Positions 23,526-26,452 of a stretch of 64,000 bases of DNA are shown in pieces. Both the position numbers and the translations under genes were made by a program. The stretch spans positions 6,366,501 to 6,430,500 of the forward strand of contig NZ_CP036319.1 in the NCBI RefSeq assembly GCF_007752935.1, given 5' to 3'. A model generated the notes under the pieces. The model did no database searches and had not been told where the DNA came from. It saw only the letters and a program-made list of their open reading frames with translations. Positions within the stretch are counted from its first letter, which is position 1. Each line of letters opens with the position of its first letter. This DNA comes from Crateriforma conspicua. GTDB lineage: Bacteria; Planctomycetota; Planctomycetia; Pirellulales; Pirellulaceae.

Positions 23526-25067
23526 TCAAGCGTCGCCGGTGTCCGCCGGTCGGCTTTCGCCGATCCGATTCAACGCATTCAACATCGCCAGGATCGTACT
23601 TTCGACGCTGTCGGTGCTGACACCAATGCCGCGATAGGACTGGCCCTTGTATTCAACTTCCAGGTTGACTTCACCGATGGCGTCCCGGCCCAGCGTGGCA
23701 CTGCGGACTTGAAAGTCTTTGCAGATCAGTTGCACACCGGTGATCTTTTCGACCGCCCAAAATGCGGCGTCGATCGGACCATCACCTTGTTCGGCCTGGG
23801 CTGTGTGTTCTTCGTCGCCCTTACGAAGCGTCACCGACACCTTGGGTGTCTTGTTGCGACTGCTGGTGACTTCATAATCGACCAGCGACCACTCCTCCGG
23901 CACACTGCCGCTGATTTGTTGCTGGACCAAAGCGATGATGTCACCGTCATAGATCTCTTTTTTCTTGTCGGCCAGATCCTTGAAACGTTCAAAGACCTGC
24001 TGAAGCTGTTCGCCGGTCAAGGTCAGCCCCAACGTCTTGGCGCGATCGGCAAGTGCGGCGCGTCCGCTGTGCTTGCCCAACACCAAATCGGTCTTCGTGA
24101 ATCCGACCTCTTCGGGCGACATGATTTCGTACGTGCTGCGTTCCTTCAGCATGCCGTCTTGATGAATGCCAGATTCATGAGCGAACGCATTGCGACCAAC
24201 GATGGCTTTGTTGCGTGGGATCGCTTGTCCGGTGACTTTGCTGACCAGTCGACTGGTGGGCAACAAACGCTTGGAATCGATCCCCGTTTCGCATTGATAG
24301 AAATCGCCACGGGTCTTCATCGCCATCACGACTTCTTCCAACGCGGCGTTGCCGGCGCGTTCACCGATGCCGTTGATGGTGCATTCGATCTGCCCTGCCC
24401 CGGCGGCGACGCCGGCCAGGCTGTTGGCCACGCCCATGCCCAAATCGTCGTGACAGTGCATGCTGATCACCGCTTTGTCGATGTTGGGCACCTTTTGTCG
24501 AAGCAATTTGATCCGGTCATAGATTTCACCCGGCGTCGCGTAACCCACCGTGTCGGGAATGTTGACGGTGGTCGCCCCGGCATCGATCGCCGCTTCGACC
24601 ACCCGGCACAGAAAATCCGGTTCGGTACGAAAGGCGTCCTCAGGTGAAAATTCGACGTCATCGCAATAGCCTGCGGCGCGGCGGACGCCGGTCACCGCAC
24701 GCTGGACGATTTCGTCCGGCGACATTCGCAACTTGAACTCGCGGTGAATCGCGCTGGTGGCCAAGAAAACGTGGATCCGGGCCGCAGGTGCCGTCTTGAG
24801 TGCCTCCCAAGCCGCATCGATGTCTTTTTCGTTGCAGCGGGCCAAACCGCAGATCGTGGCCCCACGCACGGTGCCGGCAATCTGTTTGACGGATTCAAAG
24901 TCTCCCGGCGAAGCGATCGGAAAACCGGCTTCGATGATGTCCACGCCCAAATCCGCCAACGCCTGAGCAACCTCTAGCTTTTCGGCCAGATTCATGCTGC
25001 AACCCGGCGATTGTTCGCCGTCGCGAAGCGTTGTGTCGAAAATGCGGATGTAACGAGACGAAGACAT
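23526..25067 (-). CDS. leuA: 2-isopropylmalate synthase
   Basis: A 513-residue enzyme that condenses acetyl-CoA with 2-oxoisovalerate, the committed step of leucine biosynthesis. The DRE-TIM metallolyase domain shows [14 protein letters not shown], the metal-binding [14 protein letters not shown] and [14 protein letters not shown], followed by [11 protein letters not shown]. The C-terminal LeuA dimer domain (about residues 375-505), which binds the feedback inhibitor leucine, is complete. The ATG at 25067 has an AGGAAA ribosome site upstream. The gene is preceded by a leucine-rich leader peptide and terminator hairpin, so it should be controlled both by enzyme feedback and by transcription attenuation. 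No other leu gene is adjacent. Confidence 0.96.
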
Positions 25068-25113
25068 GATTTGGTTTCCTTTCAGGAACCGATGAAACGA
25101 CAAACGAAGTCAT

Positions 25114-25146
25114 AAAAAAAACCCGAGTCGCGATGACTCGGGTTTT
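25114..25146 (-). terminator. leuA attenuator terminator
   Basis: On the minus strand, a perfect 12-bp stem (25135-25146 with 25118-25129) with a five-base loop runs into eight consecutive U residues (25114-25121). It lies between the leucine leader peptide and leuA, 47 bases before the leuA start, so it must be read through for leuA expression. This is the terminator limb of a leucine attenuator. Confidence 0.88.
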
Positions 25147-25185
25147 CCGTGTTCGGGGATCCGACCGTTTCCGGCTACACAAACC
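25141..25185 (-). promoter_or_regulatory. Possible antiterminator pairing in the leuA leader
   Basis: On the minus strand GGTTTGTGT (25177-25185) can pair with ACAC-GGA-AAACC (25141-25152), leaving a three-base bulge. This pairing uses the first bases of the terminator stem, so the two structures exclude each other. The first element starts 4 bases after the leader stop codon, where a ribosome finishing the peptide would cover it. Found by eye; folding energies were not computed. Confidence 0.5.
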
Positions 25186-25189
25186 TTCA

Positions 25190-25252
25190 TCATCCGACGC
25201 AGGGGCGTCGCAACAATAGCAGGCTCGGTAGCAGTTGGGTGCGGGTCGTCAT
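25190..25252 (-). CDS. leuL: Leucine leader peptide of the leuA attenuator
   Basis: A 20-codon frame on the minus strand, ATG at 25252, TGA at 25190-25192. Residues 7-14 read LLPSLLLL, giving six Leu codons within eight (25211-25234; CTG, CTA, CTG, CTA, TTG, TTG). It ends 44 bases before a perfect terminator stem, exactly the arrangement of leu attenuators: low charged tRNA-Leu stalls the ribosome on the Leu codons, frees the upstream arm to form an antiterminator, and allows leuA transcription. No Shine-Dalgarno site is visible, and the predicted transcription start is at or next to the ATG, so the peptide is probably translated from a leaderless message. Confidence 0.85.
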   Translation of the reverse strand: MTTRTQLLPSLLLLRRPCVG

Positions 25253-25259
25253 GATCAAA

Positions 25260-25289
25260 AGTATGGTCAAAGATCCGGGGATGTGTAAA
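25260..25289 (-). promoter_or_regulatory. Putative sigma-70-type promoter of leuL-leuA
   Basis: On the minus strand TTTACA (-35, 25284-25289) and CATACT (-10, 25260-25265) are separated by 18 bases. Transcription would begin around 25253-25254, immediately at the ATG of the leader peptide, which fits the absence of a ribosome site there. Confidence 0.55.
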
Positions 25290-25309
25290 GCCTAGACAGA
25301 ATACGCCCG

Positions 25310-25355
25310 TCGGGGTTCATCCGGTGACGCGATTCTGCCGTCGACCGAACCCCGA
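25310..25355. repeat. Inverted repeat between flhB and the leu leader
   Basis: TCGGGGTTC (25310-25318) and GAACCCCGA (25347-25355) form a perfect 9-bp stem around a 28-base loop, in which GGT/ACC may pair further. It starts 21 bases after the flhB stop on the minus strand, so it may end the flagellar transcript before the leu promoter. No U-run follows; a protein-binding site is also possible. Confidence 0.4.
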
Positions 25356-25375
25356 CTGGGCGGGTCCGACAATGC

Positions 25376-26452
25376 CTAGGCGGCCTGCGGCATCTTGCGT
25401 CCCTGCAATTGATAGACGTACCGCAACACCTCGGCGACCGCCTGGTACTGTTCCGGCGGAACAACGTCACCGGTTTCGACGTTCTTGTACAAAAACTGCG
25501 CAAGCGGTTTACGTTCGACGACGGGGATGCCGTTTTCAAGCGCCACGCGTCGGATCCGCTGGGCCAATACCCCGGCCCCCTTGGCCAGCACCACCGGCGC
25601 CGGCATCGTGACCGGATCGTACTGAATCGCGATCGCCAACTCCGTCGGGTTGCTGACCACCACATCAGCCTTGGGAACATTCTGGCCGATCTCGTTCATG
25701 GCGATCTGTCGCTGCACTTGGCGGCGACGTGCGGCCACCTGTGGATCGCCCTCGGTCTCCTTCATTTCATCCCGCAATTCCTGATCGGTCATCATCAGGT
25801 CTTGCTCAAACTTCCATTTTTGAAACGCGTATTCCAAGATCGCCAAAATCGTCAGTGCCGCACCGATATACAGACACACTTCGACCAACACTTGGAACAG
25901 AGTCCTTGCGACCTGACCGATCGTCATGGTGGCCATGCCCAGCAACGCTTCATAGCGACGACGAACGGCGAAGAACGCCACCACGCCGATGATCGCGACT
26001 TTGAACAATCCAAAGGTCAAACGCATCACACCCTGCAAAGAGAAGATTCGTTTGGCACCCGACAGCGGACTGATGTTGCTGAGCTTGGGAACCAGCTTGT
26101 CGGGCGAAATCATCAAGCCGACCTGTGTCACATTCACCAACACGCCGGCGGCAAACATCACCAACAGGAAAGGCACCGCGGCCAACCCCAGTCGCGCCGC
26201 ATGAGTCATCAGATGCCGCGACGCGCCGGCGGGCCCACCCAGTGACAAACGCGGCTTGGACAAACCCTCGGTCACCGCAATCCCAATTTGCGTGGCGGCA
26301 GCATCGCCCAGAAACCACAGCGCCGCCAATGCCGACAACAGCATCAACGCACTGGCCAAATCTTGGCTCTTGACGACCTGGCCCTTCTCACGCGCCTGGC
26401 GCCGCTTTCGGTCGGTTGCAAAATGTTTCTTGTCACCACCGGAATCAGCCAT
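25376..26452 (-). CDS. flhB: Flagellar type III export protein FlhB
   Basis: A 358-residue inner-membrane protein of the flagellar export gate that controls the switch from rod/hook to filament substrates. The N-terminus is hydrophilic and basic (KHFATDRKRRQAREKGQVVKSQDL, typical of FlhB), followed by four transmembrane segments and a C-terminal cytoplasmic domain. The autocleavage site reads NPTE rather than the usual NPTH, with the expected VVSNPT and AIAIQYDP flanks. It is the last gene of the minus-strand fliP-fliQ-fliR-flhB run, 3 bases after fliR. A 4-TM architecture and length are normal. Confidence 0.94.
   Translation of the reverse strand: MADSGGDKKHFATDRKRRQAREKGQVVKSQDLASALMLLSALAALWFLGDAAATQIGIAVTEGLSKPRLSLGGPAGASRHLMTHAARLGLAAVPFLLVMFAAGVLVNVTQVGLMISPDKLVPKLSNISPLSGAKRIFSLQGVMRLTFGLFKVAIIGVVAFFAVRRRYEALLGMATMTIGQVARTLFQVLVEVCLYIGAALTILAILEYAFQKWKFEQDLMMTDQELRDEMKETEGDPQVAARRRQVQRQIAMNEIGQNVPKADVVVSNPTELAIAIQYDPVTMPAPVVLAKGAGVLAQRIRRVALENGIPVVERKPLAQFLYKNVETGDVVPPEQYQAVAEVLRYVYQLQGRKMPQAA

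Follow-up and report, generated by a model that had tools for sequence, protein, structure and literature searches.

The analysed window, a stretch of 64,000 nucleotides from the planctomycete Crateriforma conspicua, whose genome is a single contig of 7.18 Mb, contains the gene for 2-isopropylmalate synthase (leuA), identified by equivalog matches to NF002086 and TIGR00973. The upstream neighbour flhB has the same orientation and ends 123 nt before the ATG of a short leader ORF, and 3′ of the leuA end there is a gene in convergent orientation that matches glucuronate isomerase below the cut-off. The encoded FlhB protein (window 25376–26452, minus strand) reads NPTE at the place of the autocleavage motif, which usually is NPTH.

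For the region between flhB and leuA, a leucine attenuator had been proposed from the sequence alone, and the features of the site are compiled in Table 1. Direct reading and a script re-check both recovered the claimed 20-codon frame with six Leu codons in positions 7–14 and a stop codon behind it. The claimed promoter-like pair was also found by both approaches, at 25289–25260, and it was the only sigma-70-like pair in 25060–25480 (shuffle mean 0.1). Its −10 hexamer CATACT deviates from the consensus and ends 7 nt 5′ of the leader ATG, a spacing on which the original prediction did not comment. The claimed leuA ribosome site is present as an AAGGA just 5′ of the ATG at 25067, and 122 nt separate the leader stop codon from the leuA start. 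The hairpin and the U-run of the original prediction are real, but its count of a 12-bp stem followed by eight U used four bases twice. The terminator consists either of a 12-bp stem with four further U, or of a GC-rich core of 8 bp plus an A-tract and eight U. The sharing of these four bases is probably also the reason why a simple terminator scan of 25060–25480 listed no terminator. In a dinucleotide-shuffle test, the region 25255–25104 folded 4.75 SD better than its shuffled versions, and none of 200 shuffles was as good.

Table 1. Features of the leader region and the leuA gene in the window
Feature	Position	Strand	Basis
−35-like hexamer TTTACA	25284..25289	−	direct reading, script re-check, promoter scan
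−10-like hexamer CATACT, 18-nt spacer from the −35	25260..25265	−	direct reading, script, promoter scan
Leader ORF MTTRTQLLPSLLLLRRPCVG with stop TGA, 20 codons	ATG 25252 to TGA 25190	−	direct reading, script; Leu-rich leaders conserved
Putative regulatory Leu codons, codons 7–14, 6/8 Leu: CTG CTA.. CTG CTA TTG TTG	25211..25234	−	script-checked
Strand 2, predicted antiterminator 5′ half GATGATGAAGGTTTGTGT, stop codon inside	25177..25194	−	duplex with strand 3, folds
Strand 3, predicted antiterminator 3′ half ACACGGAAAACCCGAGTCATC, including the 5′ arm of the terminator plus three bases of its loop	25132..25152	−	
Terminator hairpin AAAACCCGAGTC - ATCGC - GACTCGGGTTTT	25118..25146	−	direct reading, script; conserved with compensatory changes
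U-run of the intrinsic terminator, eight U, four also paired in the 12-bp stem	25114..25121	−	
leuA, 2-isopropylmalate synthase, 513 aa, presumed regulated gene	23526..25067	−	NCBIfam NF002086 749 bits, TIGR00973 712 bits

The conservation of the leader was analyzed with genomes of increasing distance. A leader was defined as a short ORF with at least five Leu in ten residues, located at most 480 nt upstream of the LeuA motif. LeuA was searched for in 119 genomes of the family, 97 of the order, 118 of the class, and 119 of the phylum, in samples that overlap, and upstream stretches were fetched for part of the genomes with a match. Of the family genomes, 118 contained a LeuA-like match, from which 90 stretches were retrieved ahead of motif filtering; later searches contributed four additional family loci. 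At the level of the order, 51 of the loci with matches were taken, at that of the class 28, and at that of the phylum 24. Nine loci without the LeuA motif were dropped before counting, and five shuffles per locus were used as control. A Leu-rich leader preceded leuA in 72 of the 93 loci of the family Pirellulaceae (shuffles 21/465, reverse strand 6/93), in 32 of 45 loci from the rest of the order (shuffles 8/225, reverse strand 0/45), and in 25 of 28 loci from other orders of the class (shuffles 7/140, reverse strand 0/28). Hence, the leader signal is strong within the class Planctomycetia. Outside the class, taken as a whole, it is not clearly above chance (7/22; shuffles 10/110, reverse strand 2/22), and at least two loci there (L144 and L159) have a leader, a terminator, and a strand 2:3 duplex near −27 kcal/mol. 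Because the same layout recurs in the relatives, the arrangement in the window is far above chance.

With a relaxed criterion (at least three Leu, CTG starts allowed), 11 of the 21 family misses had a weaker leader together with a terminator, compared to none of 210 shuffles of the same 21 loci; 10 of the 93 family loci had neither a leader nor a terminator within 480 nt. ORFs with at least five Leu in ten residues were rare upstream of the control genes (ilvB 1/29, trpE 3/29, hisG 1/27, cimA 2/28). When named public genomes were added and duplicates removed, an enlarged set of 243 loci with 171 leaders was obtained, for which 24 duplicates and one too-short locus had been discarded. The leader peptides have a median length of 19 aa, and their sequences vary widely except for Leu. 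Three order-level loci without a Leu-rich leader (L107, L113, and L179) have upstream ORFs that share a motif like WLVLRRP or HLVLRRP.

The codon usage of the leaders differs strongly from that of the genes they precede. CTA makes up 275 of the 1214 Leu codons of leaders (23%), compared to 68 of 4610 (1.5%) in the leuA bodies, which were counted in the longer loci; this is an enrichment of about 15-fold, in which the codons are not independent observations. At least one CTA codon was present in 129 of the 171 leaders. It is hard to explain a shift of this size by selection on the peptide. The stop codon TAG was used by 118 of the 171 leaders versus 42 of 150 leuA genes.

A hairpin with a T-run was found 3′ of the leader stop in 156 of the 171 leaders versus 16 of 171 shuffled segments. 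The distance from the stop to the 5′ arm of the terminator has a median of 38 nt, and that from the last Leu codon to the stop a median of six codons (156 leaders); together, both values fit masking by a ribosome. In an alignment of 48 leaders, 93.6% of the terminator cells were paired, double changes had occurred in 10 of the 11 pairs, and none of 500 shuffles was as high on any of five covariation measures. The comparison with related genomes suggested in the original prediction was thus in its favor, as the leader frame, the Leu codons, and the terminator with compensatory changes turned out to be conserved through the class Planctomycetia.

Promoter spacing had a narrower distribution. In the close group, defined as relatives with a LeuA about 75% identical or more, the −10 of the best promoter was located 5–8 nt before the leader ATG in 29 of 36 cases (shuffles 5%). 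Most of the 36 ATG leaders of this group have a TTGAC-type −35 with a spacer of 17–18 nt at the place of the −35 of the window. Outside the close group, the −10 had this position in 9 of 90 cases (4/33, 1/17, 2/23, and 2/17), and the best promoter was usually further upstream, and a leaderless start was therefore rejected as a general trait. For the window, a leaderless leader mRNA is predicted because the −10 lies only 7 nt before the leader ATG, and judged from the promoter positions the leaderless leader looks like a feature of a Rhodopirellula-like clade.

The original prediction also named an element able to pair with the hairpin, and this element was recovered. In the window, GAUGAU-GAA-GGUUUGUGU pairs with ACACGGAAAACC-CGA-GUCAUC with −15.8 kcal/mol, and the alternative pairing is conserved according to the energy tests described below. 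When the leader was covered to just past the Leu codons, the strand 2:3 helix was present in the computed fold before strand 4 emerges, and when a ribosome was placed at the stop codon, the terminator formed. Without translation, the stretch of Leu codons can fold onto strand 2 and thereby sequester it. Once transcribed in full, the leader is more stable in the terminator fold than in the antiterminator fold, and thus function would depend on co-transcriptional timing. Between the end of the last Leu codon (25211) and strand 2 there are 16 nt, and the leader stop codon (25192–25190) lies within strand 2, so that a ribosome finishing the leader would cover strand 2. Ribosomes cover 12–15 nt downstream. 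A value of about 12 nt is given in an excerpt of PMC4833913. Strand 2 should be accessible when the ribosome stalls in codons 7–14, and masked when it has reached the stop codon.

This location of strand 2, a point beyond the original prediction, is common among the leaders. The consensus of the 48 leaders reads GGCCnTAGGG at the stop and AACCCCGAGGCC at the 5′ arm of the terminator, showing that the stop-codon region mimics the 3′ arm of the terminator. Fifteen leaders without terminator were dropped before the strand-pairing tests, three more before the rigid-position scan, and six more before the duplex-energy test. In 145 of 156 leaders, the segment forming the best duplex with the 5′ arm of the terminator overlapped the stretch from −12 to +15 around the stop. 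For 118 non-redundant leaders, the mean strand 2:3 energy of the own pairs was −21.7 kcal/mol, compared to −17.5 kcal/mol for re-dealt pairs (SD 0.30; best of 2000, −18.6), −14.8 kcal/mol for strand 3 with shuffled strand 2, and −11.3 kcal/mol for strand 3 with the Leu-codon segment. When re-dealing was restricted to the same group, none of 5000 re-deals was as good as the own pairs in the family, order, class, and named groups; in the close group, to which the window belongs, 389 of 5000 matched the own value, a weak difference in a group whose leaders are alike. Compared with the partner taken from the most similar other locus, the own one paired better 100 times and worse 42 times.

In the rigid-position scan of 129 leaders, the strongest antidiagonal was the register seen by eye. 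The covariation of the antiterminator in the rigid register of the MAFFT alignment was not significant, as 15, 418, 128, 203, and 64 of 500 shuffles reached the five measures, although pairing in this alignment was highest at slide 0 (66.3%, next 61.2%). Bulges and register shifts may be the cause of this result. The proposed check of alternative folds thus had two outcomes: the energy tests support the antiterminator helix, whereas the rigid covariation count does not reach significance. We regard the predicted helix as supported by the free-register pairing energy and do not claim classical covariation for it.

The conservation of the leader, the codons, the terminator, and the pairing supports the attenuator interpretation of the original prediction, and the site is very probably a leucine-specific, ribosome-mediated transcription attenuator of leuA. 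Sequence comparison is the source for the leader, its codon bias, the terminator, the 2:3 complementarity, the position of the stop codon, and the promoter spacing. From these features we infer the transcription start, stalling, termination, and read-through, which might be connected as follows. RNA polymerase would start at or next to the leader AUG, and ribosomes would directly enter a leader mRNA that probably is leaderless. With ample charged Leu-tRNA, the ribosome would reach the stop codon and cover strand 2 (25194–25177), strand 3 would pair with strand 4, and transcription would end at 25114, upstream of leuA. Under a shortage of charged Leu-tRNA, the ribosome would stall in codons 7–14 (25234–25211), strand 2 would pair with strand 3, the terminator would be blocked, and leuA would be transcribed. 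Without any translation, the Leu-codon stretch would sequester strand 2, and termination would be favored.

Three other explanations were considered. The hairpin is a good terminator, and flhB has the same orientation and ends close to the leader, which makes read-through possible; hence it might be a plain constitutive terminator that insulates leuA from the upstream flagellar genes, next to an ORF that is Leu-rich by chance. However, Leu leaders recur throughout the class; their codons are biased, and the terminator follows them at a distance that varies rather little. In most leaders, the 5′ arm can also pair at the stop codon, and such ORFs are rare upstream of the control genes, so that this explanation is extremely improbable. 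The short and Leu-rich peptides would also be compatible with a functional small hydrophobic peptide, e.g., a membrane microprotein, that does not act as a sensor. This explanation has hardly any probability either: apart from Leu, the peptide sequences differ widely, the bias to the rare CTA would be left unexplained, and the leaders of cimA and of DAHP synthase are rich in Ile and in aromatic residues, respectively, in line with the product of the pathway.

Translation of the leader might instead act on the translation of leuA, by reinitiation or by freeing the ribosome site. Effects of leader genes on downstream translation have been proposed generally in an excerpt of PMC4833913, which also describes leader genes 10–11 bp before starts as over-represented in Planctomycetes, among others, and an excerpt on the actinobacterial LEU element (PMC1262725) describes a further case. 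In contrast, the leader stop in the window is 122 nt away from the leuA start, 156 of the 171 leaders have an intrinsic terminator behind them, and by inspection the Leu codons of the window are not complementary to the AAGGA stretch of leuA. Translational control is therefore a very improbable explanation, and transcription attenuation remains the preferred reading of the leuA site.

A covariance model was built from the 48 leuA leaders alone, without cimA or DAHP-synthase sites. Its best match in the genome of the window was the leuA site (45.6 bits), and the other matches were the opposite strand of this site and four weak sites. A match before a panC-like gene (by eye; 30 bits) was discarded, no leader being seen, and so was a cimA match of 16.7 bits with an unconvincing candidate leader (three Ile in ten, no clean start). 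When 60 genomes of the family were scanned with strict filters and a cut-off of E ≤ 0.001, 49 of them had matches. Among the 77 matches listed, 65 were at leuA (37, in 37 genomes), cimA (17), DAHP synthase (10), or a replacement leuA of class II (1); one was on the opposite strand of a DAHP-synthase site, and 11 were not placed, most of which look like ordinary terminators. At this threshold and with these filters, the leuA site was found in only 37 of the 60 genomes, and the leuA matches are partly a result of the construction of the model. One unplaced match at a contig edge (L497) has, by eye, an Ile run and a stop context like those at cimA.

The cimA gene encodes citramalate synthase (TIGR00977). 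Leaders with at least four Ile in ten residues preceded 11 of the 29 family cimA loci, versus 2/29 on the reverse strand and 2/145 in shuffles, one cimA row having been dropped before the count. When at least three Ile in 12 residues ahead of a terminator were required, 19 of the 29 family loci qualified, as did 18 of 28 additional loci (family 7/8, outside the family 11/20); these counts, which have no shuffle control, are based on the best of several ORFs. Ile-rich leader ORFs with a terminator are seen at L304, L319, L323, L325, L454, and other cimA loci. Stop contexts at cimA, e.g., GCGGGCTTAGG, resemble the leuA design by eye.

The DAHP-synthase sites (L427, L436, L444, L470, L472, L476, L477, L481, L489, and L496) all have a terminator. 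By automatic read-out, eight of the ten have an aromatic leader (three to nine F, Y, or W in ten residues), and the remaining two (L470 and L489) also show one. At least six aromatic residues in ten occurred in 6/10 upstream stretches versus 1/200 shuffles; at least four occurred in 7/10 versus 56/200 shuffles, with 1/10 on the reverse strand. By hand count, F, Y, and W are all present in seven of the ten leaders, e.g., FYWFYF, a composition that might allow the leaders to respond to Phe, Tyr, and Trp alike. At these sites, strand 2 does not seem to overlap the stop codon but to be located about 20 nt 5′ of it.

The replacement leuA is located in genome G055 (L490, G055:C1:1144500-1149840), where a leader MTNNLLLSLLLLRRLSGGR with a terminator and, by eye, a promoter-like pair precedes a class-II 2-isopropylmalate synthase (NF002991, 830 bits); the best class-I leuA match of this genome is only 32% identical. 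The presence of a Leu leader at a non-orthologous replacement gene argues for function.

Three other genes (28 ilvB, 29 trpE, and 27 hisG loci, after two, one, and three rows, respectively, had been dropped) were examined for leaders of their own pathway. At ilvB, there was no Ile or Val signal: at least four Ile or Val were found in 1/28 loci each; at least four Leu occurred in 12/28 loci (reverse strand 2/28, shuffles 31/140), a mild excess that shrinks to 1/29 for at least five Leu. At trpE, at least two Trp in eight residues were found in 4/29 loci (reverse strand 7/29, shuffles 28/145), and at hisG at least three His in 2/27 (reverse strand 0/27, shuffles 10/135). One hisG locus (L412 in G027) has a single His-rich ORF, MTLNHTKSGHHHSHAHHPRV, with a T-run behind it, and none of the other 26 hisG loci has an ORF with as many His.

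From the model matches and the leader compositions, it seems probable that the Planctomycetia have an undescribed ancient attenuation regulon of one architecture, which would comprise leuA or its replacement (Leu), cimA (Ile), and DAHP synthase (mixed aromatic), with a stop-borne antiterminator at leuA and, by eye, at cimA, and a leaderless leuA leader in the Rhodopirellula-like clade. If this is true, the DAHP-synthase leaders would read all three aromatic products at once. The model also yields candidate regulatory leaders for the isoleucine and aromatic pathways, which likewise go beyond the original prediction. A class-wide attenuator implies a tight coupling of transcription and translation in Planctomycetia, bacteria for which a separation of the nucleoid had once been discussed on account of their unusual cell plan. 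With the leaderless leader, nature would provide a simple way to examine how ribosomes load onto nascent RNA.

Among the open-licence papers searched, none was found that by title, beginning of the abstract, or term counts treats leuA or cimA attenuation in Planctomycetes, in agreement with the original prediction, and in an excerpt of PMC4833913 planctomycete leader genes are treated only statistically. With Rfam 15, no gathering match was obtained anywhere in the window, hence none to a T-box or another catalogued riboswitch. The window reached 20.4 bits with RF00512 (Leu_leader), whose gathering score is 50, and gathering scores were reached at none of 20 related loci (13 leuA, three cimA, three DAHP synthase, and one class-II leuA).

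The site has the general features of attenuators, namely a short leader ORF rich in codons for the end product, an intrinsic terminator, and, by free-register energy, a mutually exclusive antiterminator. The leuL leader of E. coli contains a CUA run, and with the proteobacterial leuL (RF00512) the planctomycete leaders share a series of Leu codons in which the rare CUA occurs, a terminator before leuA, and mutually exclusive pairing. They differ from it by the location of strand 2 on the stop codon, a leader of about 19–20 codons, and the leaderless mRNA predicted in the window's clade.

Actinobacterial leuA leaders are known from PMC1262725 and PMC8079986, of which excerpts are used here. The leuL1 leader MRFGLLLLSCRGEGL of S. 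lividans is leaderless, Leu-rich, located before leuA, and without a typical terminator (PMC8079986); in the LEU element, a pseudoknot is formed in which Leu codons pair with the leuA ribosome site (PMC1262725). Mutants of S. coelicolor are inconsistent with classical attenuation according to these reports. As far as these excerpts go, both groups have a Leu-rich leader before leuA, and leuL1 is leaderless, as is predicted for the window, whereas the planctomycete leaders are followed by a terminator whose 5′ arm has an alternative partner. The window does not fit the LEU element, as the terminator is present and, by inspection, Leu codons and AAGGA lack complementarity.

In the trp attenuator of E. 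coli, a three-strand logic operates, and the ribosome masks strand 2 when it reaches the stop codon. The masking of strand 2 by a ribosome at the stop would be alike in both systems; in the planctomycete leaders, the stop codon lies inside strand 2 in most cases, and the amino acid is Leu, or Ile and aromatic residues at the sister loci. The site would thus represent a known kind of mechanism in a lineage without a report found. As judged from the comparisons, its special features would be an antiterminator on the stop codon, a leaderless leader specific to one clade, and related leaders at genes of the Ile and aromatic pathways.
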